From Sphingomonas sp. LaA6.9 (GTDB lineage Bacteria; Pseudomonadota; Alphaproteobacteria; Sphingomonadales; Sphingomonadaceae): a DNA stretch of 64,000 bases. A model generated the notes under the pieces. That model saw nothing but the letters and a program-made list of their open reading frames with translations, was not told where the DNA came from and made no database searches. Both the position numbers and the translations under genes were made by a program. Of this stretch, positions 38,065-58,812 are shown piece after piece (the first letter of the stretch is position 1; each line of letters begins with the position of its first letter). The stretch spans positions 1 through 64,000 of the forward strand of contig NZ_JAKVIO010000007.1 in assembly GCF_022601895.1 (NCBI RefSeq). Reading direction: 5' to 3'.

Positions 38065-41061
38065 TCAGCGCAGCTTCATGCGGACGCCGACGCGGAATGC
38101 CCGTCCGAGCAGATCGCTATAGGTGCTGTTCGCGGCGAGGCCGGTTTCGGGCAGCAGGATCGGATCGGCGTCGAACAGGTTGGTGACGTTGACGAAGAAC
38201 TCCGCGTCGCCACGGCCCATTGCGTCGAACTTGAACGTCGCGTTGAGATCGACATAGGTCGCGCCCCCGATGCTGTTATCCTCGTAGGTCGGGAACTGGT
38301 TGGTCGAGATCGGGCAGGTGGTCCCGCACTCGATGCCCGTGGCGTCGTACCTGCCGTCGCTCACCCCGCGCGCCGTCGCGGTCAGCGAGTAATCCTCGGT
38401 GTCGTAGGTTGCGGAGAAGCGGTAGATCCACTTCGGCGTGATCGATTGCGTGCCGGTGCCGACACCAAGCGTCCCGACGGAGTTGAGCGGCACGAATCCC
38501 GGCACGCCGGTGGTGACGATGTTGTCGATGTAGCGCGTCGCCAGACCGCGCAGGGAGAGATTGCCCGCGCCGATGGGCATCCGGTACGCCGCTTCCAGAT
38601 CGAGACCGCGCATGACGATGCTGGAGAAATTGACCGGCTGGCGGCTGATCAGGACGCGCGAAGGATTGGCCGGGTCAGGCGTGATTGCTGCGCAGAAGTC
38701 CGCCAGCCCCTCGAAACAGCGGTTGACGATGTCGTCCGCGCTGAGGCTGTCGATCGCGTCCTTCACCTTGACGTCGAAATAATCGACCGACGCGGTGAAG
38801 CCCGGAAGGAAGCGCGGCGAGAACACCGCGCCGACGTTCCACGAATCCGCCTTCTCCGGATCCAGATTCAGGTTGCCCGTGATCGTACCCAGATAGGAGA
38901 GGCTGGCTCCATAAGTGCCGGTCCCCGGCCCCACTCCGGGGAAGAACGGGTTGGTGACGGTGGAGGTGTTGGCGGTGCCCGCCTGATACAGCTCATTGAG
39001 GTTGGGCGCGCGGATATCGCGCGAGCGTGTTGCACGCAAACGGATGTCCTCGATCGGCTGCCAGGTTGCACCCAGCTTCCACGTCGTGACGAAGCCCGAG
39101 GTCGAATAGTCGGTGCCACGTACCGCCCCGTTGAACTCGAATCCGTAGCCCAGCGGCACGACCGTTTCGAGATAGGCTTCCTTGACGTCGTAGCTGCCCT
39201 TGCTGGGGCGGTAGTTGCCGACCGACCAAACGCTGGTCGATGCGCCGGTAGCCGGGTTGAAGATGGGCTGGAACTCGGTGGGCACGAAGCCGGAAATCTT
39301 CTCCTTGCGATACTCGGCGCCGATCGCGACACTGACGTCGCCCGCCCAGGTTGCGAACGGCGTGAGCGACAGGTTGGCGCCGACGACGGTCTGTTCGAGC
39401 GTCTGATCGCGGAACGGATCGCCCAGAATATAGTCGACCGCAGCGGGATCGGCGACGCCGATGCCCAACAGGTTGAGCGGACGGCAGGCGAGATCGTCAT
39501 CCGCCGCGCTGGCGTTGACGTTGATCAGGCACTGGATCGACCCGACCGGCAAGTTGTTTGGGTTGCCGGCGGGCGCGAACACGGCGGCGAGCGCGTTGTT
39601 TCTGCGCACGGTCTGCTGAATATTGGTCAGCTGCTCGTGCAATTCGGCACGGCCGTACTGGCCGTAAACGTCCCAGCGCGCCGGCTTGTCGAAAGCGTCG
39701 AAACCGCCCTCCGCGCCGATCAGATAGCGTTGCACCTTGCGCTCGTTATTCGAGCCGCGGCCGGGCAGGTCGACGGCGGTCGTCGCCAGCGTGGCGCTGG
39801 TCAGGCCCGTTAGCCGCGCAGGCCCGAGCGTGTTGTAGAGGAAAGCGTTGCAAGTAAGCGGAGCCGCCGCCGCCGTTGCCGCGGCGCCGCAACCGGTCGC
39901 ATTCAGCGAGAGGCCGGTCATCAGGTTCGGGCCGGCGTTGAACAAGGTCTCCTGCTGATTGTACGAAGCCTCGGCAAAAAGCGTGACCCCGTCGCTGACA
40001 TCGAAGCTCAGCCTGCCGAAGAGGCCATAGCGGTCTTCTTCCGCGTTGAGGCCGATGCGGCGGCCCGAATCATTGACCCGCCAGTCGCCGCCTTGCGTCA
40101 GCGAGGGGGTCGAGGAGCAGGCAGGCGACGGAAATGTCAGGCTGCCATACTGGTACTGGTTGATAGAACCGGCTTGACCGAAATAGGTGCCGCAGAGCCG
40201 GTTGGCGACGCCACCGGCCGAACCGGTAATAAGCCCGCCGGGGGTCGAGTTGGCTGCGCCGACCTGGGTGCGGAAGAGGTAACGCGGCACGGTGCTGTTG
40301 GCTGTCCAGGCAGGGTTCTGGATGCGCACGAACCCGGTGTGGTTCCAGTCGCGATCGACCTGGAAGATGCCGTCAGTATGGGCGAGCTCGCCGGCCAGGA
40401 TCAGGCGGCCGCGCCCATCGGCGAACTTGAAACCGGCGGCAATCTCAGCCGAGTAATTGAAGCCGTCACCCCTTTCGGTGATGCCGGTGTCGGCGGACAG
40501 CTTCAGGCCCTCGAACTTCTTGTTGAGGATGAAGTTGGTCACGCCGGCAACCGCGTCGGAACCATACTGGGCCGATGCGCCACCGGTCACCACCTCGACG
40601 CGCTCGACCAGCGATTGCGGGATCGTGTTGATGTCGACGACGCCGTTGGCGGTCGAGCCCACCGAGCGCCGCCCGTCGATCAGCACGAGCGTGCGTACGG
40701 TGCCCAGGCTGCGCAGGTTGAGCGCGTTGATCCCCGCGATGCCGTTGCTGAGTTCAAGGCGCGAGTTCGACGGACGGATGGACGCCGCGAGCGCGGGAAG
40801 CTGATTGACGAAGTCCGCGATGTTGTTGGTCGGCGAGGAATTCTCGATGTCTTCCTCGGTCATAACCTGCAGCGGGGTCGGCGCCTGGAAGCCATCGCGC
40901 ACGACGCGCGTTCCCGTGACCACGATCTCGCTGCCGTCGGCAGCCTTCGCGGGTGTCTCCGCCGGCGCGGCGTCCTGCGCCACACCCATGCCCGACCAGC
41001 ACAACGCGGCCAGCGCCGTCCCCGTAGCCAGAAACCGCAGCCTCGTCGTCACATCACGCAT
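38065..41061 (-). CDS. TonB-dependent outer-membrane receptor
   Basis: A 998-residue receptor: signal peptide (TGTALAALCWSGMGVAQDAA), plug domain (about 45-170; EIVVTGTRVVRDGF, VEVVTGGASAQYGSDAVAGV) and a large 22-strand barrel with extended loops carrying cysteine pairs. The last residue is preceded by a beta signal (RAFRVGVRMKLR). No ligand can be read from sequence; the size and the context of peptide and D-glutamate genes suggest peptides or muropeptides. AAGGGGG precedes ATG 41061. It diverges from the AmpG-like importer gene, so both may answer to one signal. Confidence 0.93.
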   Translation of the reverse strand: MRDVTTRLRFLATGTALAALCWSGMGVAQDAAPAETPAKAADGSEIVVTGTRVVRDGFQAPTPLQVMTEEDIENSSPTNNIADFVNQLPALAASIRPSNSRLELSNGIAGINALNLRSLGTVRTLVLIDGRRSVGSTANGVVDINTIPQSLVERVEVVTGGASAQYGSDAVAGVTNFILNKKFEGLKLSADTGITERGDGFNYSAEIAAGFKFADGRGRLILAGELAHTDGIFQVDRDWNHTGFVRIQNPAWTANSTVPRYLFRTQVGAANSTPGGLITGSAGGVANRLCGTYFGQAGSINQYQYGSLTFPSPACSSTPSLTQGGDWRVNDSGRRIGLNAEEDRYGLFGRLSFDVSDGVTLFAEASYNQQETLFNAGPNLMTGLSLNATGCGAAATAAAAPLTCNAFLYNTLGPARLTGLTSATLATTAVDLPGRGSNNERKVQRYLIGAEGGFDAFDKPARWDVYGQYGRAELHEQLTNIQQTVRRNNALAAVFAPAGNPNNLPVGSIQCLINVNASAADDDLACRPLNLLGIGVADPAAVDYILGDPFRDQTLEQTVVGANLSLTPFATWAGDVSVAIGAEYRKEKISGFVPTEFQPIFNPATGASTSVWSVGNYRPSKGSYDVKEAYLETVVPLGYGFEFNGAVRGTDYSTSGFVTTWKLGATWQPIEDIRLRATRSRDIRAPNLNELYQAGTANTSTVTNPFFPGVGPGTGTYGASLSYLGTITGNLNLDPEKADSWNVGAVFSPRFLPGFTASVDYFDVKVKDAIDSLSADDIVNRCFEGLADFCAAITPDPANPSRVLISRQPVNFSSIVMRGLDLEAAYRMPIGAGNLSLRGLATRYIDNIVTTGVPGFVPLNSVGTLGVGTGTQSITPKWIYRFSATYDTEDYSLTATARGVSDGRYDATGIECGTTCPISTNQFPTYEDNSIGGATYVDLNATFKFDAMGRGDAEFFVNVTNLFDADPILLPETGLAANSTYSDLLGRAFRVGVRMKLR

Positions 41062-41136
41062 GATTGCCCCCTTGTTGTGATTCCGCCCTCCCAAGGCGGT
41101 TGCCGCATTAAGAGTCACATCAAGCGCTGAGTGCCA

Positions 41137-41166
41137 TAGTATCTGGTTGCAAGGGCATAACCGCAA
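41137..41166 (-). promoter_or_regulatory. Candidate sigma-70-type promoter for the TonB receptor
   Basis: On the minus strand TTGCGG (41166-41161) and GATACT/ATACTA (41143-41137) are spaced by 17-18 bases, about 75 bases before the receptor ATG. The match to TTGACA/TATAAT is partial. Confidence 0.3.
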
Positions 41167-41319
41167 GGAAACTGTCATCTTTCTGCAACAGTTTTGCCGC
41201 CTATGCGCCGCGCCCGTATGGCGGCCATTGACTGGCGGCATGCTTGGCCCGAGCAAGGGTCGCGGGGGCCGAGCCTGGCCGGAGGAGGCCGCCAGCCGGC
41301 ATATGCGATGGAAACAGCA

Positions 41320-42822
41320 ATGAGTGATGCTGGCACAGCCACGGCGGGCACATTCGTGCCATCGGCGCTGCCGTCAATCCGCGCACGTCAGGCGCTCTAC
41401 ATCCTGCTCGGCTTCTCGGCAGGGCTGCCCTTCTACATGTTCTCGACGGTGCTGATGCTCAGGCTCCAGGCGCATGGGGTCGGCCTCGTCATCATCGGTT
41501 TCTTCGCCTGGGTGCAGTTGCTGCCGACCTTCAAGTTCCTGTGGGCGCCGATGCTCGACCAGTTCGACGTGCCGGGCTTTGCGCGTTTCTGGGGCAAGCG
41601 CCGCGGGTGGATCATGCTCTCGCAGCTCGGCATCTTCACAGCGATGATCGCGATGGCGCTGACGTCATCGGATGCGGATCTTGCGATAACCGCACTGTTC
41701 GCGGTGCTCCTCGCTTTCTGGACAACGACGCTTGAGGTCGCCGCCGATGCCTGGCGCATCGAGATCGCACCCACGCAACACGAGCAGGGACCGGTCGCAG
41801 CAGCGAACCTGTGGGGGTATCGCACCGCGATGGTCGCAGCGGGGAGCGGCGCGCTACTGATCGCCGATCAGGCCGACTGGACGATCTCCTATCTCGCGAT
41901 CGCCGCCGCCGCCTTTCTCCCGTTTCCCATACTCGCCGCGATGCGCCCCGATCCCGCGCATGGCGGCAACCGATGGGCTGCGCTTGGTGCGGGATTGATC
42001 GCAAGCGGCCTGATCCTGTTCGCGGCGATGCTGCTGACCGCGGCCGCGGGCTGGCTGCTCCTCGGTGCGGCCGCACAACTGGGCGTCAGCGACAAGACCA
42101 ATGTCACGCCCTATGTGCTCGTGATCTGCATGGTGCCGTTCCTGATCATGGCGGCGGCTATACCCCGGATCCGCACGCTGGCGTCAGGGCATCCGCTGCG
42201 GCGATCTGCGGCGGTTGGCCCGTATGTCGATTTCTTCTGGCGTTATGCCTATGGCGCGCTGCTGGTGCTGGCCTTTGTTTCGGTATACCGGATGGGCGAC
42301 GTGCTGGCGCTCAACCTGTCCAAGCCGATGATCAAGCAACTGGGCTATTCGCTGAGCGAGATCGGTCGCGCCGACAGCTATGTGGCGCTGATTGCGAGCA
42401 TCGTCGGCGTGGGGCTGGGCGGCTTGATGGCGGCGCGCTGGCGCTGGGGCGTAACGCTCTCGATCGGAGCGGTCTTTGCCGCACTCGGCAATTTCGGCTT
42501 TGTCTGGCTGGCGCATCAGACGCCGTCCGAAGCCACGCTCTACATCGCCACCGCGGCTGACCAGTTCGGCAACGGCATGGCGGGGGCGATCTTCGTCGTC
42601 TATCTCTCGATGCTGGTGAACCCGCGCTATCCAGGCGCGCAATATGCCTTCCTCTCGGGCTTCGCCTTTCTGCTGCCGCGACTGCTGTCGGGCGCCGGCG
42701 GCGCGATGGTCATGCAGATCGGCTATGACGGATTCTTCATCCTGTCGGGGGTGGTGAGCCTAGCCGCCATTCTCTTCCTGCCGCTGATCGCGCGCATCCG
42801 GCCGAGGGGGGAAGGCATATGA
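41320..42822 (+). CDS. AmpG-like (PAT family) MFS importer
   Basis: A 12-14-helix inner-membrane transporter of about 500 residues. YILLGFSAGLPFYMFSTVLM, FFAWVQLLPTFKFLWAPMLD and LEVAADAWRIE are AmpG/PAT-family marks; helix 4 begins after a basic loop (WGKRRGWIMLSQ). AmpG imports GlcNAc-anhydroMurNAc-peptides; MlrD of microcystin-degrading sphingomonads is in the same family. Starts at ATG 41308 and ATG 41320 are both possible; 41320 has GGAAA at better distance. Its stop overlaps the S12 hydrolase start (ATGA), so import and cytosolic cleavage are coupled. Confidence 0.86.
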   Translation: MSDAGTATAGTFVPSALPSIRARQALYILLGFSAGLPFYMFSTVLMLRLQAHGVGLVIIGFFAWVQLLPTFKFLWAPMLDQFDVPGFARFWGKRRGWIMLSQLGIFTAMIAMALTSSDADLAITALFAVLLAFWTTTLEVAADAWRIEIAPTQHEQGPVAAANLWGYRTAMVAAGSGALLIADQADWTISYLAIAAAAFLPFPILAAMRPDPAHGGNRWAALGAGLIASGLILFAAMLLTAAAGWLLLGAAAQLGVSDKTNVTPYVLVICMVPFLIMAAAIPRIRTLASGHPLRRSAAVGPYVDFFWRYAYGALLVLAFVSVYRMGDVLALNLSKPMIKQLGYSLSEIGRADSYVALIASIVGVGLGGLMAARWRWGVTLSIGAVFAALGNFGFVWLAHQTPSEATLYIATAADQFGNGMAGAIFVVYLSMLVNPRYPGAQYAFLSGFAFLLPRLLSGAGGAMVMQIGYDGFFILSGVVSLAAILFLPLIARIRPRGEGI

Positions 42823-43820
42823 TCGACGACGCATTCGTCCCGGCCGCGGACGCTGTGGCTGAGGGCCGCATTCCCGGAGCTACGCTCGGTATCGTCGCGG
42901 CGGACGGACGGCGCTGGGTGAAGACCGCGGGTAAGGCCGCGCTGGTGCCCGAGCCCGAGCAACTGACGGTCGATCACTGGTTCGATCTCGCCTCGGTCAG
43001 CAAGGTGGTCGCCACCACCATGATGATCCTCGAGCTCGCCGATGCGGGGAGGATCGACCTTGACGCGCCGTTGACCACCGCCATCCCCGATCTGCGGCAA
43101 TATGACGTCGCGAGCGCCGCGGAGCGTAAGATCACCTTTCGCGACTGCCTGGCGCACCGGACATTCCTTCCCGCGGTCGAGCCGATCTATACCTATGGGG
43201 AAGACCCCGCGCGTCTGCGCGCATTCGTGCTCCAGCGCGAATGGCGGCAGGGGCCGGCCGTCTATTCGGACATCAACTATATCCTGCTCGGGATCGCGAT
43301 CGAACGCATCACCGGCGCGCCGCTTTCGGATTGGCCGCTCGGCGAAGGGCTGAGCTACGGACCGCCCCCCGGGCCCGTAGTCGCCACCGAGCATTGCCAG
43401 TGGCGTGGCCGCGTCCTGAAAGGCGAGGTGCATGACGAGAACGCCTCGGCACTGGGCGGCGCGCCCGGCCATGCCGGACTGTTCGGCACGGTGGACGGCG
43501 TGCTTGGCTTTGCTCAAGGGCTCCTCGATGGCAGCGGCGCGTCGCCGGCGACGCTTGCCGCGATCCGCACACGCATGAATGGCGATCGCACCGCCGGGTG
43601 GGAACGACGCTTTGCCGGCTGGCCGGGCGGCGATGCCTGCTCGGACGAGACGATCGGGCATACCGGTTTCACGGGCACGGGCCTGTGGATCGATTTCGAG
43701 CGCGGGCTCGCCTGGACCCTGCTCACCAATCGCGTCCACCCGACGCGCCACCGCGACAGCGGCATATTCACGCTGCGGCCGGCAACGGGCGATGCGGTGA
43801 TCGCGGCGTGGCGCGGCTGA
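42819..43820 (+). CDS. Cytoplasmic serine hydrolase, S12/beta-lactamase family
   Basis: A 333-residue hydrolase without a signal peptide. Nucleophile motif SVSK (Ser59-Lys62), second motif YSDIN where YxN is usual, and third motif HTGFTGTG in place of KTG. Family members include D-aminopeptidases, esterases and MlrB. Because it is translationally coupled to an importer, its substrate should be what the importer brings in, probably a peptide with D-residues. The 3' end is 6 bases from the convergent dacB stop. Confidence 0.87.
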   Translation: MIDDAFVPAADAVAEGRIPGATLGIVAADGRRWVKTAGKAALVPEPEQLTVDHWFDLASVSKVVATTMMILELADAGRIDLDAPLTTAIPDLRQYDVASAAERKITFRDCLAHRTFLPAVEPIYTYGEDPARLRAFVLQREWRQGPAVYSDINYILLGIAIERITGAPLSDWPLGEGLSYGPPPGPVVATEHCQWRGRVLKGEVHDENASALGGAPGHAGLFGTVDGVLGFAQGLLDGSGASPATLAAIRTRMNGDRTAGWERRFAGWPGGDACSDETIGHTGFTGTGLWIDFERGLAWTLLTNRVHPTRHRDSGIFTLRPATGDAVIAAWRG

Positions 43821-43826
43821 CGTTAC

Positions 43827-45281
43827 TCAGTTTTCCGCGGCGATCATCTCGAGCACCGCATCCATCGTCGTGGTCGCCTTGATATTTTCAGGCACGTCAT
43901 TGGCGTAGATCGAAAAGATCAGCTCGCGCCCGCTTTTTGTGGTCATATAGCCAGAAAGCGCGTTGGTTGCGTTGAGCGTGCCCGTCTTGGCGAACAACCG
44001 GCCCTCGAGCGTGGTGCCGCGGAAGCGTTTGGACAGTGTTCCGTCCACGCCCGCCACGGGAAGCGTCTGGCGCCAGGCCGCGCCCCAGGGCTGTTGGGCG
44101 ATCCAGCGCAGCAGCTTCGTCATGCCGCGCGGAGCCACGCGGTTATAGGTCGACATGCCCGAACCGTCGGAAAAGTCGTAGGCGCTCCGCGCCACGCCCG
44201 CATTCTCCATGATCGCTCGGACCGCCGCAACGCCGTCGCCGATCGATCCCGTGCCCTTATGTGTGGCGACGCGTCTGAGCAACAGTTCGGCGTGGAGATT
44301 CTGGCTGACCTTGTTGATCTCGACGATGTCGTCGGCGAGCGGGGGCGGAGAGAGCGTGGCCAACACAGGCAATGCGGGCGGGCGTGCGGGCGGCGTCTGC
44401 TTGCGGATCGCGGGATCGTCGGCCGGCGCCAGCGGCCGGTGGCGCACCGCGATACCGCCGGTCACGCGCACGCCGCGCGCCGCGAGCAGCTCCTTCAGGC
44501 GCCAGGCAGTGTAGTGAGCCGGATCATCGATGCTGAGCCGCAGGTCCTCGGGTTTGGCACCCGCGACGATCGTGCCCGTCAGCCGAACCGCATCGCCATT
44601 CGGCTCGCGCGCGAAGTCGACCTTGGTCTCGCCCGCAGCGACGGTCAGGACGCGATTGTCGATCGTGTAGTAGGACGGCCCTTCTGCGCGGGCGGTGGCG
44701 CCGGGCGCCGTGGGTGAGACCGTAAGCACCAGCTCATTGTCGTCCATGGTCAGCGCCGAGGTCGCTGTGCCGTATCGCGAGGAAATGTTGTTCCAGCTCA
44801 TTCCCGGGCTCCAGCGCTCGTCGGGAAAAAGCGTGTCGTCGCCCACGATATCGCCGACCAGGCGCGTGCGCGCCGAAACCGCATCGGCAAGCGTGGCAAG
44901 ACAATTCGTCACGCAGTTCGCAGCCCCTGAAAGCCGCGCGTCGCCTCTGCCGATCAGAACGACATCGGGCGCTCCGCGGCCATTCTGGTCGAGCCGCACC
45001 GCCGTGCCCCCTCCCGCGTCGGGCTGTTCAAGCCCGCCGAGCGTTGCATAGGCCGCGGCGGTGGTGACAATCTTCGTATTGGACGCCGGGATGAAGCGAT
45101 CATCGGGGGAGATCGCGATCAGTTCCTTGCCATCGCTGGTGGTCACGACCAGACCGAAGCGCGTCCCGGGTCCCGCCTCGGCCAGTCTGGCCTCTATGCG
45201 CGCCTGAAGCGGTGTCTGGGCCGTGGCGGGCATGGCGGCCGTGGCGAGCGAAAGCGTGAGCGTGGTGCGTAGCAGGATCAT
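43827..45281 (-). CDS. dacB: D-alanyl-D-alanine carboxypeptidase/endopeptidase, PBP4 type (S13)
   Basis: A 484-residue periplasmic penicillin-binding protein. Signal peptide LRTTLTLSLATAAMPATAQ; active-site motifs SNTK (Ser67-Lys70), SDGSGMSTYN and KTGTLNATNALSG are all intact, with the large insert between motifs 1 and 2 that marks class C low-mass PBPs. It removes terminal D-Ala or cuts D-Ala-mDAP crosslinks, releasing peptides that the neighbouring genes could take up. It diverges from the S9 peptidase gene across 141 bases. Confidence 0.93.
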   Translation of the reverse strand: MILLRTTLTLSLATAAMPATAQTPLQARIEARLAEAGPGTRFGLVVTTSDGKELIAISPDDRFIPASNTKIVTTAAAYATLGGLEQPDAGGGTAVRLDQNGRGAPDVVLIGRGDARLSGAANCVTNCLATLADAVSARTRLVGDIVGDDTLFPDERWSPGMSWNNISSRYGTATSALTMDDNELVLTVSPTAPGATARAEGPSYYTIDNRVLTVAAGETKVDFAREPNGDAVRLTGTIVAGAKPEDLRLSIDDPAHYTAWRLKELLAARGVRVTGGIAVRHRPLAPADDPAIRKQTPPARPPALPVLATLSPPPLADDIVEINKVSQNLHAELLLRRVATHKGTGSIGDGVAAVRAIMENAGVARSAYDFSDGSGMSTYNRVAPRGMTKLLRWIAQQPWGAAWRQTLPVAGVDGTLSKRFRGTTLEGRLFAKTGTLNATNALSGYMTTKSGRELIFSIYANDVPENIKATTTMDAVLEMIAAEN

Positions 45282-45422
45282 CCTGCGAGCCTAGTTCCGA
45301 CTTCGCCCAACGCAATCACCCGGGGATCATTCAGAGTGTTGGCGTGCCCATAACCGCCTGGCATGACGGGGGAGTTCGCGCTTGTGACGCTGCGCCATGC
45401 ACTACAGACAGAAGGCATGAAC

Positions 45423-47459: not shown

Positions 47460-48742
47460 AACGCTGGCTGCGCAACCTCCTCGCGCTGGTGGGCGCATTT
47501 GCCTGTGCCGCCACGGCGCATGCCGAGCCCGAGACACTCATCCGCGGCGCGCGCGTTTTCGATGGCACGGGCGCGCCCGCACGGATCCGCGACGTACTCG
47601 TGCGCGGCGACAGGATCGTCGCGGTCGGGCGGCATATCCGCGTCCGCGATGCCGAGGTCGTCGATGCAAACGGGCTGACGCTGCTTCCGGGGCTGCACGA
47701 TCTCCACGTCCATACGCCGCGCGTCGCATTCGAGGGTGCCGAGGCGCTTGCGGACACGCACCGGCCCTATCTCGCGAGCGGGGTGACGTCGATCAACGAA
47801 TATTCGGTTTCGGGACCGATGCTCGCGCCCATCCGCGCGATCGTCGCCTCGGGGCAGGCGGACGCGCCGCATATGGTCCTCGCTATCAGGCTTGGCGTGC
47901 CGCACGGCCATGGCACCGAATCCGAGTTCACCAATTCGATCACAACGCAGGTCACCACGCCTGCCGAGGCGCGGGCCGCGATGAAAGAGCTGCTGTCCTC
48001 GCGCCCCGATGTCATCAAGGTCTTCGCGGATGGCTGGCGCTACGCGCGCGACGCCGACCGACCCGACATGGACCTGCCGACATTAAAGGCAATCGTCGAT
48101 GCTGCGCACGCCCGGAATATCCGCGTCGTGACGCATACGGTGACGCTCGCGGGCGCCAAGCGTGCGGCGCGCGCGGGCGTGGACGCGCTGGTCCACGGCG
48201 TCGGCGACGCGAGGGTCGACCGCGAGCTGATCGGGTTGATGAAAAAGCACCGGACCGCCTATGTGCCGACGCTCGTCGTCTATGAGCCGAAACAGGACCG
48301 CACGCTGCTTGCCGCGGAATGGAGCCGGCTGCGACCGCGCGACCTCGAACGCGAGACGGAGCGCAAGGCGGAACCGAACGCGCCCATTCCCGAATATGAA
48401 TCGCGGCGCTGGCAGATCATGCAGGATAATGTCCGGCTGCTGCGCGCGGGCGGAATCCGCATCGGCGTCGGCACCGACACCGGCATTGGTGGCGTCTATC
48501 CCGGCCTTGCCGCGCAGCGCGAGATCCGGTTGTTGACTACGCTTGGCTTTACCCCGCGCGAGGCGCTGGTGGCCGCGACAAGCACGAGCGCGCGGATCAT
48601 GGGCGCTCGCGATCATGGCCGCATCGGCCGCGGTCAGCGCGCTGATCTGGTGTTGGTGGCTGGCAGGCCCGACGAGCAGATCGAGGATTTGTATCAGGTG
48701 CGCCGGACATGGGTTTCGGGACGCGCCGTGAGTTTTGACTAA
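47456..48742 (+). CDS. Exported metal-dependent amidohydrolase (imidazolonepropionase/Xaa-dipeptidase-like)
   Basis: A 428-residue periplasmic amidohydrolase. It starts at GTG 47456 inside the S9 stop (GTGA) with GGGGGGAAG upstream, and has a signal peptide (LLALVGAFACAATAHAE). Metal-site residues are readable: HDLHVHTP (HxH), VIKVFADGW (Lys), VVTHTVT and LVHGVGD (His), and GTDTGIGG (Asp). Relatives hydrolyse Xaa-Pro or Xaa-Arg/Lys dipeptides; given the neighbour, a dipeptidase role is inferred. It converges on the PhyH gene, 21 bases away. Confidence 0.87.
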   Translation: MKRWLRNLLALVGAFACAATAHAEPETLIRGARVFDGTGAPARIRDVLVRGDRIVAVGRHIRVRDAEVVDANGLTLLPGLHDLHVHTPRVAFEGAEALADTHRPYLASGVTSINEYSVSGPMLAPIRAIVASGQADAPHMVLAIRLGVPHGHGTESEFTNSITTQVTTPAEARAAMKELLSSRPDVIKVFADGWRYARDADRPDMDLPTLKAIVDAAHARNIRVVTHTVTLAGAKRAARAGVDALVHGVGDARVDRELIGLMKKHRTAYVPTLVVYEPKQDRTLLAAEWSRLRPRDLERETERKAEPNAPIPEYESRRWQIMQDNVRLLRAGGIRIGVGTDTGIGGVYPGLAAQREIRLLTTLGFTPREALVAATSTSARIMGARDHGRIGRGQRADLVLVAGRPDEQIEDLYQVRRTWVSGRAVSFD

Positions 48743-48763
48743 CGCCGTTGGGGCAGCGACCCA

Positions 48764-49606
48764 TCACACATAATGCGGCTCGCCGCGTTCGCGCAGTTCC
48801 TCATAATGGACCAGTGCGGGCTCCGGTCCCAAGGGTACGGGTTCGCCATCGCGAAATGCCCATTCGCCGCGATCGCAATCCTCGGCGCGGACATAGCCGT
48901 TGATGTAGAGACGCCGGCGATGACCGGAGCGGTTGGTGCCCGATCCATGGACCAGATAGGGATTCCAGAGTGCCAGATCGCCCGGCTCAAGTGTGACGTC
49001 GATCGCGTCCGCGGGCGAAAGCGATGCCGCCTTCAGCGCGGCGTCGCTCATCGCGGTGCCGAGAACCTCGGTCGAGCAATCGAGGCCGAGGTCGCCCCTC
49101 AGATGGCTTGCCGGAATGAAGCGCATGCAGCCCGATTCGGGCGTGTGCGGATCGATCGCGAGCCCGGTCTGGACATAGGATGTCGCAAGGTTGCGATAGG
49201 CCCATTGAGGCTGACGAAAGCGCGAATCCTGATGCCAGGCGAAATCGCCGAGCGACCCCGGCGCCTTCCAGTGAACCTGGTTGATGATCTGCTTGAGGTT
49301 CGATCCGAGCAGGGGCTGCAGCAATCGCGCAAAACGGGGGTCTAGGCGGACTGCGTTCAGCGCGGCGATGTGATAGGACGGCCATTGCGCCATCCGCACC
49401 AGCGGTTCGCCATCTTCGCGCGGGGTGACGTTGTAAAACAGGTTTCCGTGCCGGAAGCTGCGCCCGTGGCGTACCCCTTCTTCGTGCAGCTGGTCGATCG
49501 CCGCGCCGATCGCCGCGATTTCATCCACATCGAAGAAGCCCCTGATCACCGCATAGCCGTCGCGCTGGTACCGGGTGACGAGATCCTCTGGATACGCGTT
49601 CGCCAT
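48764..49606 (-). CDS. Phytanoyl-CoA dioxygenase (PhyH) family protein
   Basis: A 280-residue Fe(II)/2-oxoglutarate-dependent oxygenase. The iron triad is clear: His125 and Asp127 in AWHQDSRF, His220 in YLVHGSGTN; an Arg for 2-oxoglutarate follows (HRRRLYING). It ends the minus-strand D-glutamate operon, 5 bases after the symporter. Hydroxylation of an amino acid or a small acid is plausible; the substrate is unknown. Its co-substrate 2-oxoglutarate is one step from glutamate. ATG 49606 is used although the frame is open to 49699. Confidence 0.88.
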   Translation of the reverse strand: MANAYPEDLVTRYQRDGYAVIRGFFDVDEIAAIGAAIDQLHEEGVRHGRSFRHGNLFYNVTPREDGEPLVRMAQWPSYHIAALNAVRLDPRFARLLQPLLGSNLKQIINQVHWKAPGSLGDFAWHQDSRFRQPQWAYRNLATSYVQTGLAIDPHTPESGCMRFIPASHLRGDLGLDCSTEVLGTAMSDAALKAASLSPADAIDVTLEPGDLALWNPYLVHGSGTNRSGHRRRLYINGYVRAEDCDRGEWAFRDGEPVPLGPEPALVHYEELRERGEPHYV

Positions 49607-49611
49607 CTCGC

Positions 49612-50856
49612 TCAGGCCTCCGGGCGTGATCGGTATACGGCCTCGTCGAGTTCGCCCTCCCAGCGCGCAACCGTGGTCGCCACCGTCAGGTTGGCGCAAG
49701 CGCTGGGGACGGTGCGTGTCATGTCGAGCAGCCGGTCGAAGGGCAGGACGAAGCCGACGACGAGCGCGGTCTGCTCGGGCGCAACGCCGACCGCCGAAAG
49801 CACCGCGGCGAGCATGAAGAGCGAGGCAGAGGGCACGGGCGCGGTCCCGAACGCGGCGAGCGCACCTGTCAGCAGGACGAGGCCATAGACCGCGGGAGAG
49901 AGCGGCGTGCCGAAAGCCTGGAGCGCGAACATGCTGAGCAGCCCGACATACATGGCCGTGCCGTCCTTGCCGATGCTTGCGCCGAGCGGCAGCACTGTCG
50001 AGAAGATCGGGCGGCTGATGCCGAGGTTATTCTCGGCAACGCGCATCGCGACGGGCAGCGTCGCCGAACTCGATGACGTCGAAAAGGCCACGACGAGTGC
50101 GTCGACGATGCCGCGGAAGAAAGGCAGCACGGGAAGGCGTGCAAGCAGCCGCAGGATGAGGTTGTGCACGACGACGATCTGTATGAGCGAGCCGATCACC
50201 ACCGCCAGCGCGAGCCAGCCGACATTGACGAACACCGCCGCGCCGTTCGCGGCGACCGCGTTCGCAATCAGCGCGAAGACGCCGAAGGGCGTTGCCTCCA
50301 TCACGATGCCGACGATCTTGAGCAGTACCGCCGAGGCCGACTGCAAGAATGCGGCAAACGGCTTGCCCGCCTCGCCCGCGACGACGGTGCCGACGCCGGT
50401 CAGGATCGCGACGAAGATCAGCGCCAGCATGTCGCCCTTGGCGAGTGCTTCAAAGATGTTGAGTGGGATGATGCCGACGAGCTGCTGATAGGGCGTGACG
50501 GGCTCTCCAAGCGCATGCGGCGCCGCTGTACCGAGCGGCGCGCCGACGCCGGGCTGGACGAGCGCTGCGACCACCATCCCCACCGACACCGCGATCGCGG
50601 TGGTGAGCGCGAACAACCCGATCGTCCGGCCGCCAAGGCTTCCGAGTCGCCTGGGATCGGCAAGCGACGTGATACCCGCCGCGATCGTGACGAGCACGAT
50701 CGGAGCCACGAGCATGCGGATCGCGCGCACGAAAAGGTCACCGAGGAACGCGACCGATGGCGCGGCCGATGGCCAGACAAAGGCGAGGATCAGTCCAAGC
50801 GCCAGCCCGCCGAGGACGCGCTTCCACAACGCTATGGCGAACCAGCCGCGGATCAT
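49612..50856 (-). CDS. Dicarboxylate/amino acid:cation symporter (DAACS/GltP family)
   Basis: A 414-residue inner-membrane carrier of the GltPh/DctA family. Marks include the serine-rich hairpin FSTSSSSATLPVAM, GASIGKDGTAMYVG, and the C-terminal substrate loop FDRLLDMTRTVPSACANL (usually NVxGD at the end, so the substrate site differs a little). Glutamate, aspartate or a C4 acid is likely. ATG 50856 overlaps the deacylase stop (ATGA). In this operon it may import D- or L-glutamate freed in the periplasm. Confidence 0.9.
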   Translation of the reverse strand: MIRGWFAIALWKRVLGGLALGLILAFVWPSAAPSVAFLGDLFVRAIRMLVAPIVLVTIAAGITSLADPRRLGSLGGRTIGLFALTTAIAVSVGMVVAALVQPGVGAPLGTAAPHALGEPVTPYQQLVGIIPLNIFEALAKGDMLALIFVAILTGVGTVVAGEAGKPFAAFLQSASAVLLKIVGIVMEATPFGVFALIANAVAANGAAVFVNVGWLALAVVIGSLIQIVVVHNLILRLLARLPVLPFFRGIVDALVVAFSTSSSSATLPVAMRVAENNLGISRPIFSTVLPLGASIGKDGTAMYVGLLSMFALQAFGTPLSPAVYGLVLLTGALAAFGTAPVPSASLFMLAAVLSAVGVAPEQTALVVGFVLPFDRLLDMTRTVPSACANLTVATTVARWEGELDEAVYRSRPEA

Positions 50857-52424
50857 GTGCAGGAGCCCGTTGGCTTGTGCGCGAGCGCACGGCCCGTAGC
50901 TTTGCCAGTGGGCTTGCCGCCTTCAACAGCTACCACGCCGTTCACGACGACCGAACGCACACCTTCTGTGAGCAGCGTTGGTGCGTCATAGGTTGCACGT
51001 TCGCGATAGCGCCTGGGGTCGAAGATCACGATGTCGGCGAAGGCACCCGCGCGCAGATGACCGCGCCCATCGAGCCCGAACGTGTCGGCGGTCTGCGCGC
51101 TGCTGCGTTCGATGAACTCGCGCAGCGTCAGAACCTTCTCGGTAACGACATATTTGGCGTATTTGCGCGCGAAAGATCCGTACATGCGCGGATGGCCGGC
51201 CGAGGCGTCGGAGCCCGTCATCACCCAGGGCCGCTTCATGAAAGCCGCGATATCCTGCTCGCTCTGATTGAACGACGCGACGCCGGGATCGTGATCGCGG
51301 ATGACCGCGATGGCAGCGCTGACTGCATCTCCGCCATGTGTCTCGGCGACCTTTGCAAGCGTCGCTCCCTTGTGGTGCCCTTCAGTAATCAGCAGTGCAG
51401 CCGCGCCGCCGCGCTTGCGGAGATTCTCGGTCATGTCGGCGCGCAATCGACCCGCAAGCGCCGCGTCGTCGAAGCGCCGGAGCAGCGCGGCACGCCCGCC
51501 ATCCTGTGCCCAGCGCGGTACCAGCGAAGCGGTGAGGCTGGTTCCCGACGCCGACCAGGGGTACTGGTCGGCGGTGACCTTCACACCCTGCGCGCGCGCC
51601 GCTTCCACGATTCCGATGATCTCGCCCGCCTGCCCTTGGACATCGACGCCCAGCGCCTTGATGTGTGCAATGTGGACGGGCATCTGCGCCTGCCGCCCCA
51701 CGTCGATCGCTTCCTCGATCGCGGCCTTGAGCCCGATCGAGTAGCTCGATTCATCGCGGATATGGCTGTCATAGGTGCCCCCGAACGATCCGGCCTCGCG
51801 GGCCAGCGCCACCACTTCCTCGCGCTTCGCGAAACTCTGCGGTGCGTAGAACAGTCCCGTTGAAAGGCCGAGCGCCCCTTCGCACATTGCCCTGGCGACG
51901 AGCCCCTTCATGCGCGCAAGTTCTTCTGCGGTGGGTTCGCGATCGGTCTCGCCGATCACGGCCTTCCTTACGGGCCCGAGGCCGACATAGGTCGCATAGT
52001 TGACGCCCACAGGCTTGCCGGCAGCCCTGCCGAGCACAGCCGCGACGTCCGGATCGCCGCCGCCATCATTGCCAATGAAAGCGGTGGTCACGCCTTGCAT
52101 GAGGAAGGGCAGGATGAGCCGTTCCTGCGCATCGTCGGAGGCAAGCATCGCGCCCGCATGGGTGTGCGGATCAATGAAACCGGGCGCGACTACCATCCCG
52201 CTCGCGTCGATCACGTGTTTCGCCTGCACATTGGCACGGGGCGCGACGAGGCGGATGCGATCGCCGGTGACCGCGACATCGCCGACAAAGGGCTCGTCCG
52301 AACCGGTGTAGACGGTACCGCCGCGGATCAGCAGGTCCACCTGTTCAGGCGCGGGAGCCGCGCCGAGCGTTGAGATCGCGATCGTGAGCATCGCCGCCGC
52401 ACGCGCAATCCTCGGCTTTATCAT
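50853..52424 (-). CDS. N-acyl-D-amino-acid deacylase (D-aminoacylase)-like amidohydrolase, exported
   Basis: A 523-residue member of the D-aminoacylase group of amidohydrolases. Signal peptide AAAMLTIAISTLGAAPAPE suggests a periplasmic site. Metal residues: His87/His89 in PGFIDPHTHAG, the conserved Cys in MCEGALGLSTGLFY, SHIRDES, VHIAHIKALG and TGSDASAGHP. It should remove acyl or aminoacyl groups from D-amino acids. ATG 52424 overlaps the dgcA stop (ATGA). Confidence 0.87.
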   Translation of the reverse strand: MIKPRIARAAAMLTIAISTLGAAPAPEQVDLLIRGGTVYTGSDEPFVGDVAVTGDRIRLVAPRANVQAKHVIDASGMVVAPGFIDPHTHAGAMLASDDAQERLILPFLMQGVTTAFIGNDGGGDPDVAAVLGRAAGKPVGVNYATYVGLGPVRKAVIGETDREPTAEELARMKGLVARAMCEGALGLSTGLFYAPQSFAKREEVVALAREAGSFGGTYDSHIRDESSYSIGLKAAIEEAIDVGRQAQMPVHIAHIKALGVDVQGQAGEIIGIVEAARAQGVKVTADQYPWSASGTSLTASLVPRWAQDGGRAALLRRFDDAALAGRLRADMTENLRKRGGAAALLITEGHHKGATLAKVAETHGGDAVSAAIAVIRDHDPGVASFNQSEQDIAAFMKRPWVMTGSDASAGHPRMYGSFARKYAKYVVTEKVLTLREFIERSSAQTADTFGLDGRGHLRAGAFADIVIFDPRRYRERATYDAPTLLTEGVRSVVVNGVVAVEGGKPTGKATGRALAHKPTGSCT

Positions 52425-53410
52425 TCTTCCCCCCAGAAACCTGTGGCCGGCGGCACGAGCATCCCGTGCGCTTCGGCAACGCCACCGACCCGATCCTCCC
52501 GGAGCCAGAGCGGCCCGTCAAGGTCGGCGAAGCCTGAGAGGCGGGCGACGTGCAACGCAGGCGCGATCGAAAGCGACGAACAGATCATGCAGCCGGTCAT
52601 CAATTGCATGCCACGCCCCTGCGCGGCGTCGGCGAGGCGCAGTGCTTCGGTGAGCCCCCCGGTCTTGTCGAGCTTGACGTTCACCGCCTGATAGCGCCGC
52701 GCGACCACATCGAGATCGTCCGCCACATGGATCGCTTCATCGGCACAGATCGGCACTGCCGAACTGAAACCTTCGAGCCACGCATCCTCGCCCGCGGGGA
52801 CGGGCTGCTCGAGCAGCGCGACGCGGCATTGCAGCAGCACGTTCTGAAGCCTCTCGGTGAGCGCCTGATCCCAGCTTTCATTGGGGTCGACGATCAGGGC
52901 CGCGGCGGGCGCGGCGGCACGGACCGCCAGGATTTGCGCTGCAGGATCATTGGCGTCTACTTTCACCTTGATCAGCGGCGCATCGGCGATCGCGGAGGCG
53001 GCGCGCGCCATCGCATCGGGTGTATCGATGACGACGGTGAGCGCGGTCGGAAGTCTTCCGGGGGGCGGCGCTCCGATCATCGCGGCGACACTCGATCCCG
53101 CAAGCCGCGCCTCGAGATCCCACAGCGCGCAATCGAGCGCGTTGCGTGCCGCGCCCGGCGGCAGCAGCGTGAGCAACGTCGCACGATCGGCGCCGTCCTC
53201 CACCGCGCCGCGCACGCTCCCGATCATTGCCAGTGCACTCTCGACGCTTTCGCCATAGCGTGCATAGGGGACGCCTTCACCGCGCCCTTTGAGCGCGCCT
53301 TGCGCGATCGTGACCGTGACGACGTCGGCCTCTGTTTTTACCCCCCGCGAAATGCGGAAGGGCGATTTCAGCGCGAAACGGTCGTGACGGGCTTCGAGAT
53401 GTCGGGGCAC
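52421..53410 (-). CDS. dgcA: Enolase-superfamily dipeptide epimerase / N-acetyl-D-Glu racemase DgcA
   Basis: A 329-residue muconate-lactonising-type enzyme. The acid/base lysines Lys148-x-Lys150 (IKVKVD) and Lys246 (VNVKLDKTGG), and metal ligands Asp175 (VDPNESW), Glu201 (LEQPVP) and Asp224 (CADEAI), are all present. Related proteins epimerise L-Ala-D-Glu; the DgcA group is described as racemising N-acetyl-D-glutamate. Adjacent dgcN favours the latter, but both are possible. The start is GTG 53410, overlapping the end of dgcN by 43 bases. Confidence 0.88.
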   Translation of the reverse strand: MPRHLEARHDRFALKSPFRISRGVKTEADVVTVTIAQGALKGRGEGVPYARYGESVESALAMIGSVRGAVEDGADRATLLTLLPPGAARNALDCALWDLEARLAGSSVAAMIGAPPPGRLPTALTVVIDTPDAMARAASAIADAPLIKVKVDANDPAAQILAVRAAAPAAALIVDPNESWDQALTERLQNVLLQCRVALLEQPVPAGEDAWLEGFSSAVPICADEAIHVADDLDVVARRYQAVNVKLDKTGGLTEALRLADAAQGRGMQLMTGCMICSSLSIAPALHVARLSGFADLDGPLWLREDRVGGVAEAHGMLVPPATGFWGEE

Positions 53411-54402
53411 AGCAATTCATCCATGATCGTATCGAGGCCGAAGCGCATCGGATCGGTGCAGGGAAGCTCGAAAGCCAGTGCGGTCTCATCGCACAGCCGC
53501 CGCGCCGCCGCTTCGTCCATCGCCGAGGTATTGAGGCAGATGCCGACCGCGCGGACACCGGGGCTGGTAAGCCGCGCCATGTGCAGGTTGAGCTCGAGGC
53601 ACTCGCCGAGGCCCGGCAGGTCCCGGCCGGCGATCCCGCGCATATGCGTGCGCGAGGGATCGTGGCACAGCACGATCGCCTCGGGCTGTGCGCCGTGGAG
53701 AAGTCCTGTCGAAACCCCCGCGAAGGAGGGGTGAAAGAGCGAACCCTGACCCTCGATCACGTCCCAGCCGTCATCATCGCGCGCGGGTGCAAGCTGCTCG
53801 ATGGCGCCCGAGATGAAGTCGGCGACGACGGCATCGACGGGAACCCCCGCGCCGGCGATCAATATGCCGGTCTGGCCCGTCGCACGGAAATCGGCGCTCT
53901 TGCCACGCGCCCGGATCGCATCGACCAGCGCAAGCGAAGCGTACATCTTGCCGACCGAACAATCGGTGCCGACCGTCAGCAGGCGGTGGCCGGCGCGGGG
54001 GCGACCGTTGCCGACCACGAGATTTGCGGGCGGATCGCGGACGTCGAACAGTTGCAGACCATGCCGTTGCGCCGCTTCGACCAGACGCGGTTCGTCGCGC
54101 AGTCGCTGATGGAGGCCCGATGCGACGTTCATGCCCGCCTCGAGCGCGGCGAGCGCGTCCTCGATCAGGTCGGGGGCCATCGTGCCGCCCGAATTGGCAA
54201 TGCCCAGTACGAGAGTGCGCGCGCCCGCCGCCGCCGCTTCGGCGATCGTCAGGCGTGGCAGACCCAGCGTAAGCGGGCAATCATCGTGCCGGAACTCGCC
54301 GACGCAATCCGGAGCGCGAAAGGTCGCGAGACCGCGGGAGGTCTTGATCCCGACCGAATCCGTGCTTCGGCCGAGATAGAGCAGAAAGGGTGCAGGTATC
54401 AT
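53368..54402 (-). CDS. dgcN: DUF1611 family protein, D-glutamate N-acetyltransferase DgcN-like
   Basis: A 344-residue DUF1611 protein with a Rossmann-like first half and a P-loop ATPase-like second half. The nucleotide loop is GTDCSVGKM (145-153); FLLYLGRSTDSVGIKTSRGL at the start and DPSRTHMRG are family marks. Proteins of this family paired with DgcA are described as transferring an acetyl group to D-glutamate as the first step of its breakdown. ATG 54402 starts the conserved part. It is 68 bases downstream of the LysR gene. Confidence 0.88.
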   Translation of the reverse strand: MIPAPFLLYLGRSTDSVGIKTSRGLATFRAPDCVGEFRHDDCPLTLGLPRLTIAEAAAAGARTLVLGIANSGGTMAPDLIEDALAALEAGMNVASGLHQRLRDEPRLVEAAQRHGLQLFDVRDPPANLVVGNGRPRAGHRLLTVGTDCSVGKMYASLALVDAIRARGKSADFRATGQTGILIAGAGVPVDAVVADFISGAIEQLAPARDDDGWDVIEGQGSLFHPSFAGVSTGLLHGAQPEAIVLCHDPSRTHMRGIAGRDLPGLGECLELNLHMARLTSPGVRAVGICLNTSAMDEAAARRLCDETALAFELPCTDPMRFGLDTIMDELLCPDISKPVTTVSR

Positions 54403-54470
54403 CCTATGCACGGTAAGCCGCCCGCGCGCCAACCGGGCATAGCGAGTGCGCGCGAGACCATAGCCGCGCG

Positions 54471-55355
54471 TTATGACCCGTCGATGACCTTGGCCAGCGT
54501 CTTGAGAAAGGTGGTAGCCAGCGCGGTCGGCGGCCGGTTGATCAGGAACAGCGCATGGACATCGAAGGCCAGCGACGGCTTGAGCGGGCGCATAGCGAGG
54601 CCCGGCCCGAGCGACGCCTGCGCAGTGAAACTGTCGACAACGGTAAGCCCCACCCCGGCGCGCACCAGCGCTGTCGCGATATAGAAGGTGCGCGCCGACA
54701 CCACTTCATCAAGCTCTATTCCGAGACGTTCCAGCTCCTGCGTGAAGATGTAGCCGATCGGTCCGCTCGCCGCGACGCTGACCAGCCGGTGGCCGCGCAG
54801 ATGCGAGAGTTCGAGGCGCGGCGGGGCATCGGGCATGTCCTCCTCGCGGTACAGCACCGCAAGTTCGCCCTCGCTCAGCCAGCGACTGCCGACGGGTGCG
54901 GTCGGCGGCACTTCATAGGCGATCGCGATATCGGTCTCGCGTTCATAGAGCTTGCGCACGAGATCGTCGTGATGGACGGTCTGGAGGTCGAACTTCACAT
55001 CCTGATGCGTGCGCAGGAAGCGCGCGACCGCGATCGGGAGCGCGCCGAGCGCGAGCGAGGGGAGCGCCGAGATCCGCAGCGTCCTCCCCGCACCGCGCCG
55101 CAGATTGCGCCCCGCCTCGCGCAGCGAATAGACCCTGTCCTGGATCTCGCGCACTTCCTCGAACAGCATGTGCGCGTCCTCGGTGGGCACCAGCCCGCCA
55201 TTCGTCCGCTCGAACAGCGGAAAGCCGAGCAGCGATTCCGCATGGCGAAGCGTCTTCGATACCGAGGGCTGCGAAATATTGAGCGCGCGCGCCGCGGCCG
55301 TGACCGAACCGTTGGTATAGACCGCGTGGAAGATCTCGATATGGCGCAGCTTCAT
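54471..55355 (-). CDS. LysR family transcriptional regulator of the D-glutamate operon
   Basis: A 294-residue LysR protein: winged helix-turn-helix (1-60; [20 protein letters not shown]) and a two-lobed inducer domain. Unlike most LysR genes it is not divergent but lies within the minus-strand operon between an S12 hydrolase and dgcN. Its ATG overlaps the hydrolase stop (ATGA). Control of the downstream dgcN-dgcA genes and self-regulation are inferred. Confidence 0.9.
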
Positions 55356-56539
55356 CGTTGCGCCGCCCTGGTTTCCTGGGCCAGTGCCTCTTCGGTGGCG
55401 GTGAAGGCGGACCGTTTGCCCGCATCGTCCGCGGGAACGTCGGTCGCGAAATAGGCGACCCCGGTGCCGCGTTCGCGGTCGATCCACAGCCCCGAGCGCA
55501 GGCCATAGGCATCGCCCGCATGGCCGAAGCGCCGGCGTCCGTCGCCGAACACGTCGTCGCGGCACCCCTTTTGCGAGGTCGCGAGAAAGGTCACGGCCAG
55601 CCCGTAACTGCAATAGAAACCCATATTCGCCGCGCCTGTCGTCTCATCGCTGCCGGTGTCGCCGTTACTGCCGTCAAAAGTCCATAGCGGCCGCTCGAGC
55701 AATGCCACCGAGCGGGGGCTGAGCAGGGTGACGCCATCTACACTGCCTTGCCCCAGCAGCAGGCGCCCGATCCGCGCGAGCCCGCGCGCCGAAATGCGCA
55801 ACCCCCCTTGCGGCGAGAATATCGCGCCGTTCGTGCCGGGCTGCCACTGCGTCAGGTCGCAATTGCCGTCGCGCGCGGGTTGCACAGCACATGCGGGCTT
55901 TGTGTCATGATTGTCGTCACGCACCGGAACGCCCGCTCGATAGAGGACGACCGCGCGTGCGGCGGTTCGGTCGCTGCAACTGGACCAGTTGTAGCAGGCA
56001 TCGAGCTTGAGCGGTGCCAGGACGAGGCGATCCATCAGCCGGTCGAAACGCTCGCCCGTTGCGCGTTCCATCACCGCGGCGATTACCGGAAAATTGATGT
56101 TGGCATAGCGGAAAAAGGCGCCCGGAGGATGCTCGACATCCCATGCCTTGGGGTCGGTCAGCACGCTTTTCAGCTCGGCATCGAGCGGGAGCACATAGTC
56201 GATCCCGTCATTGAGCCCCGAACGGTGCGAGAGCAGCAGCTTCAGGGTGATTGGCTGGTCCGGAAATGCAGGGCTGCGCAGCCGCCAGCCGAGCAGGGCG
56301 GAGACATCGGCATCGAGATCGAGCCGACCCTGCTCGACCAGTCGCATCACCGCGATCGCGATCACCAGCTTCGAAATGGATGCCACGCGCACCGGATCGT
56401 CGGCGGTGGCTCTCCGTCCCGTCGCGATATCGGCAAAGCCGGACGCCTGTGCGGCGACCTCGCCCTCCCGATCGAAGGAAACGCGAACACTGGCAGCGGG
56501 TTGGGAAGCTGCGGCGAGCAGCGTGGCGGTAAGCAGCAT
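55352..56539 (-). CDS. Exported serine hydrolase, S12/beta-lactamase family
   Basis: A 395-residue secreted hydrolase with signal peptide [17 protein letters not shown], nucleophile motif SISK (Ser54-Lys57), second motif YANIN, and GHAGDAYG near the C-terminus where KTG would be. Extra cysteines ([18 protein letters not shown]) may form disulfides. As first gene of the D-glutamate operon it probably cuts a peptide in the periplasm. ATG 56539 is preferred; TTG 56581 in the same frame would lengthen the signal peptide. Confidence 0.87.
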
Positions 56540-58725: not shown

Positions 58726-58812
58726 TCCAAATACTCATATAAACATGCGGGTTTGTCGTTTTGTGGGTCGCGCGCGATGATGCAGTGAGCGTCATATCCC
58801 GTGGAGGCGTAT

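Follow-up and report, generated by a model that had tools for sequence, protein, structure and literature searches.

The 64,000-nt stretch of contig NZ_JAKVIO010000007.1 from Sphingomonas sp. LaA6.9 that was analyzed in this work (the window) carries between positions 38065 and 56539 a block of genes which is best read as a locus for the scavenging of D-glutamate, one of several loci for D-peptides that exist in parallel. Its core is a minus-strand operon in the order S12b-LysR-DgcN-DgcA-D-aminoacylase-like-SDF-PhyH, and to the left of it lie the genes for an S9 peptidase, an amidohydrolase, PBP4, S12a, AmpG and a TonB receptor (Table 1), where S12a and S12b denote the two S12 serine hydrolases. 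Families were assigned by Pfam and NCBIfam profile searches, which recovered, each in its place, all the families listed in the initial annotation of this DNA. The gene coupling put forward there for AmpG with S12a, for S9 with the amidohydrolase and along an overlapping operon is borne out by 4-base overlaps at five junctions: AmpG/S12a and S12b/LysR (both ATGA), S9/amidohydrolase (GTGA), DgcA/D-aminoacylase-like and D-aminoacylase-like/SDF. Within the operon SDF and PhyH are separated by 5 bases and LysR and DgcN by 68 bases, and the LysR protein is the likely switch. The symporter described initially as glutamate-type belongs to the SDF family, the finer label being dropped with all four listed NCBIfam models below their cut-offs. 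Families, gene order, coupling, export signals and conservation are established here from sequence. For export our own rough, permissive rule was applied to the N-termini; it was informative for the D-aminoacylase-like enzyme, PBP4, the S9 peptidase and the TonB receptor, there was no amidohydrolase case in the set, and the result for S12b was ambiguous (signal-like N-terminus in 6/14 homologues).

The central pair of the operon is DgcN and DgcA, whose putative functions are assigned through curated equivalog families. All seven DgcN proteins scored from the same side of the DgcN tree as the window's exceed the 480-bit cut-off of the DgcN model NF041892 (503-556 bits); below it are five paralogues of the same genome (437-448) and four proteins of a second DgcN clade from other genomes (440-472). 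Three DgcA paralogues of the genome score 361-382 bits, under the cut-off of 400 for NF042940. An mSystems paper (PMC12363236) places dgcN at the centre of a pathway that racemises acidic D-amino acids and the corresponding amides.

Table 1 Gene products of the block, their window coordinates and the profile matches behind the family assignments
Gene product	Coordinates	Strand	Matches and remarks
TonB-dependent receptor	38065..41061	-	PF00593 1.6e-34, PF07715 1.5e-18; start ATG 41061; divergent from AmpG
AmpG-family importer of the major facilitator superfamily	41308..42822	+	TIGR00901 351.2 bits, cut-off 350
S12a (S12 serine hydrolase), probably cytosolic	42819..43820	+	PF00144 2.8e-37
PBP4/DacB-type D-Ala-D-Ala carboxypeptidase/endopeptidase, exported (predicted)	43827..45281	-	TIGR00666 226.5 bits, cut-off 107.8
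S9 prolyl-oligopeptidase-family peptidase, exported (predicted), accessory	45423..47459	+	PF00326 2.9e-40
Amidohydrolase, Xaa-Pro dipeptidase-like, N-terminus export-like, accessory	47456..48742	+	PF01979 3.6e-20; NF051886 120.9 bits, cut-off 500
PhyH-family 2-oxoglutarate oxygenase	48764..49606	-	PF05721 1.4e-28
SDF (Na+:dicarboxylate family) symporter, candidate D-glutamate importer	49612..50856	-	PF00375 1.4e-99
D-aminoacylase-like amidohydrolase, exported (predicted)	50853..52424	-	PF07969 8.2e-22
DgcA, putative N-acetyl-D-glutamate racemase, enolase superfamily	52421..53410	-	NF042940 431.9 bits, cut-off 400; exact start uncertain
DgcN, putative D-glutamate N-acetyltransferase (DUF1611)	53368..54402	-	NF041892 503.4 bits, cut-off 480; PDB 7xrj 3e-94
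LysR-type regulator	54471..55355	-	PF03466 5.5e-27, PF00126 2.7e-20
S12b (S12 serine hydrolase), possibly exported, accessory	55352..56539	-	PF00144 6.3e-47

Relatives of the block were collected by scanning a single genome for each species (best 80 of 587 loci, flanks up to 10 kb), and these loci together with those of the family genomes include at least 78 with a DgcN of at least 60% identity. In a DgcN tree of 120 rows, made by a quick method with support from the Shimodaira-Hasegawa-like approximate likelihood ratio test (SH-aLRT), the sphingomonad proteins form a clade of 58 rows (support 100). The main counts come from 44 loci of this clade fetched blind to their content and are lower bounds, since the flanks end at 10 kb (some contigs sooner) and AmpG lies 10.5 kb from DgcN in the window itself. 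DgcA was found in 43 of these loci, LysR and the D-aminoacylase-like gene in 40 each and SDF in 36, followed by PBP4 (30), the TonB receptor (25), S12a (24) and AmpG (22); S12b (9), the amidohydrolase (6), PhyH (4) and S9 (3) were rarely present. The check proposed in the initial annotation, a search for co-occurrence, therefore finds the neighbourhood kept beyond dgcN-dgcA, and of the single unit claimed there AmpG, S12a, PBP4, the receptor, LysR, SDF and the D-aminoacylase-like gene are supported as parts; for S12b, the amidohydrolase, PhyH and S9 membership is not supported. Twelve additional loci, some of them cut to include already known positions of AmpG, S12a or PBP4 and hence not blind, bring the set to 56 (one duplicate and the window excluded), with DgcA in 53, LysR and the D-aminoacylase-like gene in 51 each, SDF in 42, PBP4 in 39, the receptor in 31, S12a in 30, AmpG in 27, S12b in 12, the amidohydrolase in 11, S9 in 7 and PhyH in 4. 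A Sphingobium plasmid carries dacB, the TonB receptor, the amidohydrolase, LysR, dgcN, dgcA and the symporter again.

The set occurs among the sphingomonads in at least four gene orders, which differ between the subclades of the DgcN tree. In the window type AmpG and S12a face the operon; in the second the D-aminoacylase-like gene comes first and LysR follows DgcA or SDF; in the third AmpG, S12a and PBP4 are co-directional downstream of LysR-DgcN-DgcA-SDF (five loci, of which three carry the name Sphingopyxis), with the receptor running on in the same direction in the Sphingopyxis form; and in the fourth (L031) PBP4, S12a and AmpG stand on the opposite side, divergently. AmpG and S12a adjoin in all 26 loci that have both. 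Because the neighbourhood is conserved, the parts of the block would act together, and the most telling evidence that they share a task is that the association has survived rearrangement.

Linkage was followed with four window proteins over 99 genomes, which represent 94 genera of the family, where a window-type DgcN was defined by at least 65% identity (the next group reaches at most 53%) and carriers of AmpG, S12a and PBP4 were counted at E <= 1e-40. Window-type DgcN is present in 16 genomes, any DgcN match in 24. It accompanies AmpG in 9 of the 10 genomes that have this gene, S12a in 11 of 13 and PBP4 in 12 of 20, with hypergeometric p values of 6e-8, 2e-9 and 2e-7 respectively, which ignore shared descent and so treat as independent points genomes that are not, a caution to be held against the reading given below. 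In genomes with both genes the distance to DgcN is at most 20 kb for AmpG in 8/9, for S12a in 10/11 and for PBP4 in 12/12, PBP4 being less than 10 kb away in every case. A housekeeping role for AmpG and PBP4 was rejected, these being limited to 10/99 and 20/99 genomes and another AmpG-family gene being present.

It seems to us reasonably likely that the block serves the scavenging of D-glutamate-bearing compounds, most likely peptidoglycan stem-peptide fragments, foreign or own, a substrate that we infer; wall peptides are favoured as the source because AmpG and PBP4 belong to wall-related families and D-glutamate is a stem-peptide residue. The TonB receptor would carry such compounds across the outer membrane, and the exported PBP4 and D-aminoacylase-like enzyme, export being predicted from the N-termini, would trim them in the periplasm, with S9, the amidohydrolase and S12b as optional helpers. 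The SDF symporter could then admit free D-glutamate, and the second AmpG of the genome could take in larger fragments, to be cut in the cytosol by the coupled S12a. D-glutamate would be acetylated by DgcN and the resulting N-acetyl-D-glutamate turned by DgcA into N-acetyl-L-glutamate, as the equivalog families imply. From there general enzymes would lead to L-glutamate or to arginine synthesis, given that the block yielded no cytosolic deacetylase of the ArgE type.

Several observations weigh against this reading. In 12 of the 44 clade loci AmpG, S12a and PBP4 are all unseen in the flanks, and from 36 loci that share the window's side of the tree but fall outside the sphingomonad clade (DgcA in 31, the D-aminoacylase-like gene in 12, SDF in 10) all three are absent under the identity thresholds applied, AmpG and S12a being seen beside DgcN inside the sphingomonad clade only. 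Genome G027 has AmpG and PBP4 with no DgcN match, G024 has S12a without DgcN, AmpG or PBP4, and 8 of the 20 PBP4 genomes lack a window-type DgcN. In G021 the only DgcN match (48% identity) lies on a different contig from the DgcA cluster. These genomes would be expected if a dgc operon that deals with free D-glutamate and a separate wall-recycling cluster of AmpG, S12a and PBP4 were independent of each other and shared the region by chance, and so would be the split of the set in G091, where two groups lie 1.3 Mb apart. The G091 split, however, crosses the proposed border: the receptor, the D-aminoacylase-like gene, S12a and AmpG are on one side, and PBP4, SDF, DgcA, DgcN, LysR and S12b on the other. 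With linkage, moreover, persisting through several gene orders and orientations in nearly every genome with both genes, we regard a chance vicinity as quite improbable. The DgcA cluster of G021, a relative of the same genus (L125, contig C4), comprises DgcA, the D-aminoacylase-like gene, SDF, the amidohydrolase, PBP4, S12a and the receptor, with no DgcN match there.

The identity of the importer and of its partner also has to be weighed. Solved AmpG structures match the window protein at 5e-37; its pass of TIGR00901 is marginal (351.2 bits for the long open reading frame and 350.1 in the genome search, against 350), and it fails the equivalog models for muropeptide transporters PRK11010 (153 vs 756) and PRK11902 (164 vs 656). 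The other of the two AmpG-family genes of the genome, on contig C29, scores 363 bits vs the 350.1 of the window's copy and can serve ordinary recycling. No gene for NagZ, AmpD, AnmK or a lytic transglycosylase was found among the scanned open reading frames of the block, to which the search for them was confined, so the sugar end of muropeptides would not be handled there. In S12a the residues S59, K62, Y149-S-D and H281-T-G are invariant in 27 aligned sequences. Its AlphaFold model (mean predicted local distance difference test score, pLDDT, 83) matches DD-peptidases, esterases, D-amino acid amidase and other S12 proteins about alike, and hence points to no particular substrate; the permissive signal rule flags 14 of 35 S12a proteins as signal-bearing, an ambiguous result that sits poorly with a cytosolic role.

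The D-aminoacylase-like enzyme matches solved D-aminoacylases (4e-57) and the N-acyl-D-glutamate deacylase 3gip (2e-52). Signal-like N-termini were seen in 66 of its 68 homologues at 45% identity or more vs 6/85 for DgcA and 13/118 for DgcN, so the enzyme should act outside the cytosol, before import. An alignment of the window protein with 68 homologues at 48% identity or more (n=69) retains the aligned His residues, Lys and Asp of the D-aminoacylases in 69/69. Two positions speak on the opposite side: that of Cys96, which we take to be a metal ligand of the D-aminoacylases, is Asp in 69/69, and that of Ser289 is Gly in 66/69 and Asn in 3/69, in a column that is possibly shifted, with a Ser nearby. 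The pair that marks the D-aminoacylases AfDam and BbDam, Cys96 with the alpha-carboxylate Ser289, is thus found in none of the 69 aligned proteins. An Arg near the place of the Arg295-type gamma-carboxylate residue is present in 44/69, in a loop that does not align with BbDam. As far as the accessible part of a 2025 JBC paper goes (PMC12017989; numbering mapped by us), metal ligands and carboxylate-anchoring residues are strictly conserved in the known groups, and since the Cys96 and Ser289 positions differ the enzyme probably belongs to a separate group. Two loci (L051 and L129) have three D-aminoacylase-like matches in a row, adjoining DgcN.

The initial annotation spoke of one full combination. 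Its genes are present as stated; the phrase does less than justice to a genome with six DUF1611/DgcN loci in parallel. The five outside the block all belong to the second DgcN clade. The locus on contig C76 has a PTR2 transporter, a TonB receptor, a DPPIV/S9 peptidase, an M19 dipeptidase, DgcN, DgcA, a D-aminoacylase-like enzyme and an amino-acid permease; that on C32 has DgcA, DgcN, PTR2, S12, a D-aminoacylase-like enzyme, a receptor and DUF885; that on C93 has S15, S12, DgcN, two M19, a D-aminoacylase-like enzyme and a receptor, with no DgcA match. On C78, at a contig end, lie a D-aminoacylase-like gene, DgcN and DgcA, and on C31 S12, an amidohydrolase, DgcN, a membrane protein of no known family and M19, with no DgcA or D-aminoacylase-like match. 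Four of the six M19 genes of the genome and 6 of its 23 S12 matches are no more than 10 kb from a DUF1611 gene (footprint 2.6%; binomial 7e-6 and 2e-5); two of these six S12 matches are those of the window. These five loci probably do for other D-amino-acid peptides what is proposed here for the block. An M19 dipeptidase between two S12 hydrolases on a contig with no DUF1611 match (C46:49663-56083) may be a further D-peptide locus.

The second clade comprises 25 rows of the tree, five from this genome and 20 from others, set apart from the 95 other rows with support 99, and some long branches meet there; one genome (G085) has seven DgcN copies. Outside the Sphingomonas genome 20 of the 22 second-type copies, from 12 genomes (those of G011 and G063 left out), were taken with surrounding stretches that reach at most 20 kb, clearly less in two cases. 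TonB receptors occur in 17 stretches, S12 in 16, DgcA in 12, D-aminoacylase-like genes and the family-less membrane protein in 11 each, M19 in 10 and PTR2 in 4. For comparison, 20 control stretches were placed manually at round positions with their content still unseen. Genomes of the test set supplied 14 of these controls and further genomes the remaining 6; 6 of the 12 test genomes have no control. LysR2 is present in two of the controls, SDF in one and a TonB receptor likewise in one, and S12, DgcA, D-aminoacylase-like genes, the membrane protein, M19 and PTR2 in 0/20. The multi-pass membrane protein (L011:10117-11280 from C31, with 11 relatives) accompanies second-clade DgcN in 11/20 loci; searches with it gave no Pfam match better than E 0.27, none in NCBIfam at E <= 0.001 and no PDB sequence at E <= 1. 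The nearest folds to its model (mean pLDDT 86) are APC/LeuT-type transporters including BasC, YcsG and Nramp (E about 1e-5, template modelling score up to 0.70), and an APC/LeuT-type transporter fold is predicted for it.

These loci also bear on what the block itself takes up. D-isoglutamate occurs in cyanobacterial cyclic peptides, and secreted D-glutamate polymers or cyclic peptides are a serious rival substrate. The block could be directed at D-glutamate-rich or -containing secreted peptides (poly-gamma-D-glutamate, non-ribosomal or cyanobacterial cyclic ones), its AmpG and PBP4 relatives having been recruited as a general D-peptide transporter and hydrolase. The narrow margin by which AmpG exceeds its cut-off fits such a recruitment, and so does the presence in second-clade loci of S12, M19 and sometimes PTR2-type transporters instead of AmpG and PBP4. 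Sphingopyxis strains, moreover, degrade microcystins via the mlr cluster of three hydrolases and the oligopeptide-transporter-like MlrD, according to the accessible text of PMC6563193; a literature text search for microcystin, mlrD and AmpG together found no paper. The block nevertheless pairs PBP4, of a D-Ala-D-Ala enzyme family, with AmpG, both from families of wall-fragment proteins and both retained by relatives, and we consider the secreted-peptide substrate unlikely while giving it real weight. Wall-derived D-glutamate compounds are kept as the preferred substrate, and a wider scheme may be advanced tentatively, with slightly less than even confidence: sphingomonads would possess parallel modular D-amino-acid-peptide loci, each joining an enzyme of the DgcN type, acetyl-CoA-using and with a distinct specificity, to its own TonB receptor, to S12, M19 and D-aminoacylase-like hydrolases and to its own importer (AmpG, PTR2, an amino-acid permease or the APC-type-fold transporter without Pfam family), the window being the D-glutamate member and the second clade serving other D-amino acids.

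Two features of the window lie outside the block. An erythromycin-esterase-family protein (PF05139, 1.5e-131) is encoded just beyond it at 35999-37390. Adjoining the block, at 58801-61259, the HGLS gene (2-oxoadipate dioxygenase/decarboxylase, PF07063) overlaps a gene for an oxidase linked to flavin adenine dinucleotide, a pair which we take to belong to D-lysine catabolism, so that routes for two D-amino acids may lie side by side here.

In the organic matter of soils and oceans D-amino acids form a long-lived fraction, and cell walls supply much of it. The proposed function, if true, would link outer-membrane uptake and trimming of D-amino-acid material to the recently described DgcN-DgcA route, would give an extra AmpG with S12a a role outside wall recycling and would make the second DgcN clade a directly testable group for further substrates. 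DgcN-DgcA, AmpG and PBP4 are already known, as is, from the available text of PMC3400609, a TonB receptor beside D-aminoacylase in a marine bacterium. New within the literature searched, whose coverage left out the founding DgcN paper and most subscription journals, are the kept combination, which no paper among the matches listed describes, the pairing of a second AmpG with S12a, and the occurrence of six parallel loci together with a second clade of DgcN.

The block can be set beside several known systems. The companion by which a SusCD-type system is recognized, a SusD-like lipoprotein family, was not found beside the TonB receptor among the scanned open reading frames of 38-56 kb. Peptidoglycan recycling shares with the block the AmpG and PBP4 families; here AmpG is an extra copy that tracks DgcN and whose gene overlaps that of an S12 hydrolase, with no NagZ, AmpD or AnmK identified alongside. 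AfDam (1m7j) and the N-acyl-D-glutamate deacylase BbDam (3gip) are related to the D-aminoacylase-like enzyme in sequence and in the retained His, Lys and Asp, whereas the block enzyme has Asp for Cys96 and Gly for Ser289 and is predicted to be exported. The marine gammaproteobacterium NOR5-3 has a TonB receptor beside a D-aminoacylase gene, proposed to act on N-acyl-D-amino acids (PMC3400609). It shares with the block the receptor and D-aminoacylase as a unit of uptake and cleavage and differs in that DgcN, DgcA, AmpG and PBP4 go unmentioned in the available text. Homologues of dgcN (E <= 1e-30) are found on 83 of 72,556 plasmid records, 20 of these from Klebsiella. The Enterobacter and Klebsiella plasmids have the dgcN-dgcA pair in common with the block; on the single Enterobacter record examined (L154 of the plasmid collection) the pair, in contrast, adjoins a glutathione-type ATP-binding cassette transporter. 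The nearest counterpart is the DgcN-DgcA pathway of D-glutamate catabolism itself, reportedly founded by Yu et al. in 2023 (ISME J 17:537): both proteins of the block pass the curated equivalog models and their genes adjoin. The sphingomonad block differs from it in adding an outer-membrane receptor, a second AmpG, S12a, PBP4 and an exported D-aminoacylase-like enzyme, and the genome in having five further loci with a second-clade DgcN.

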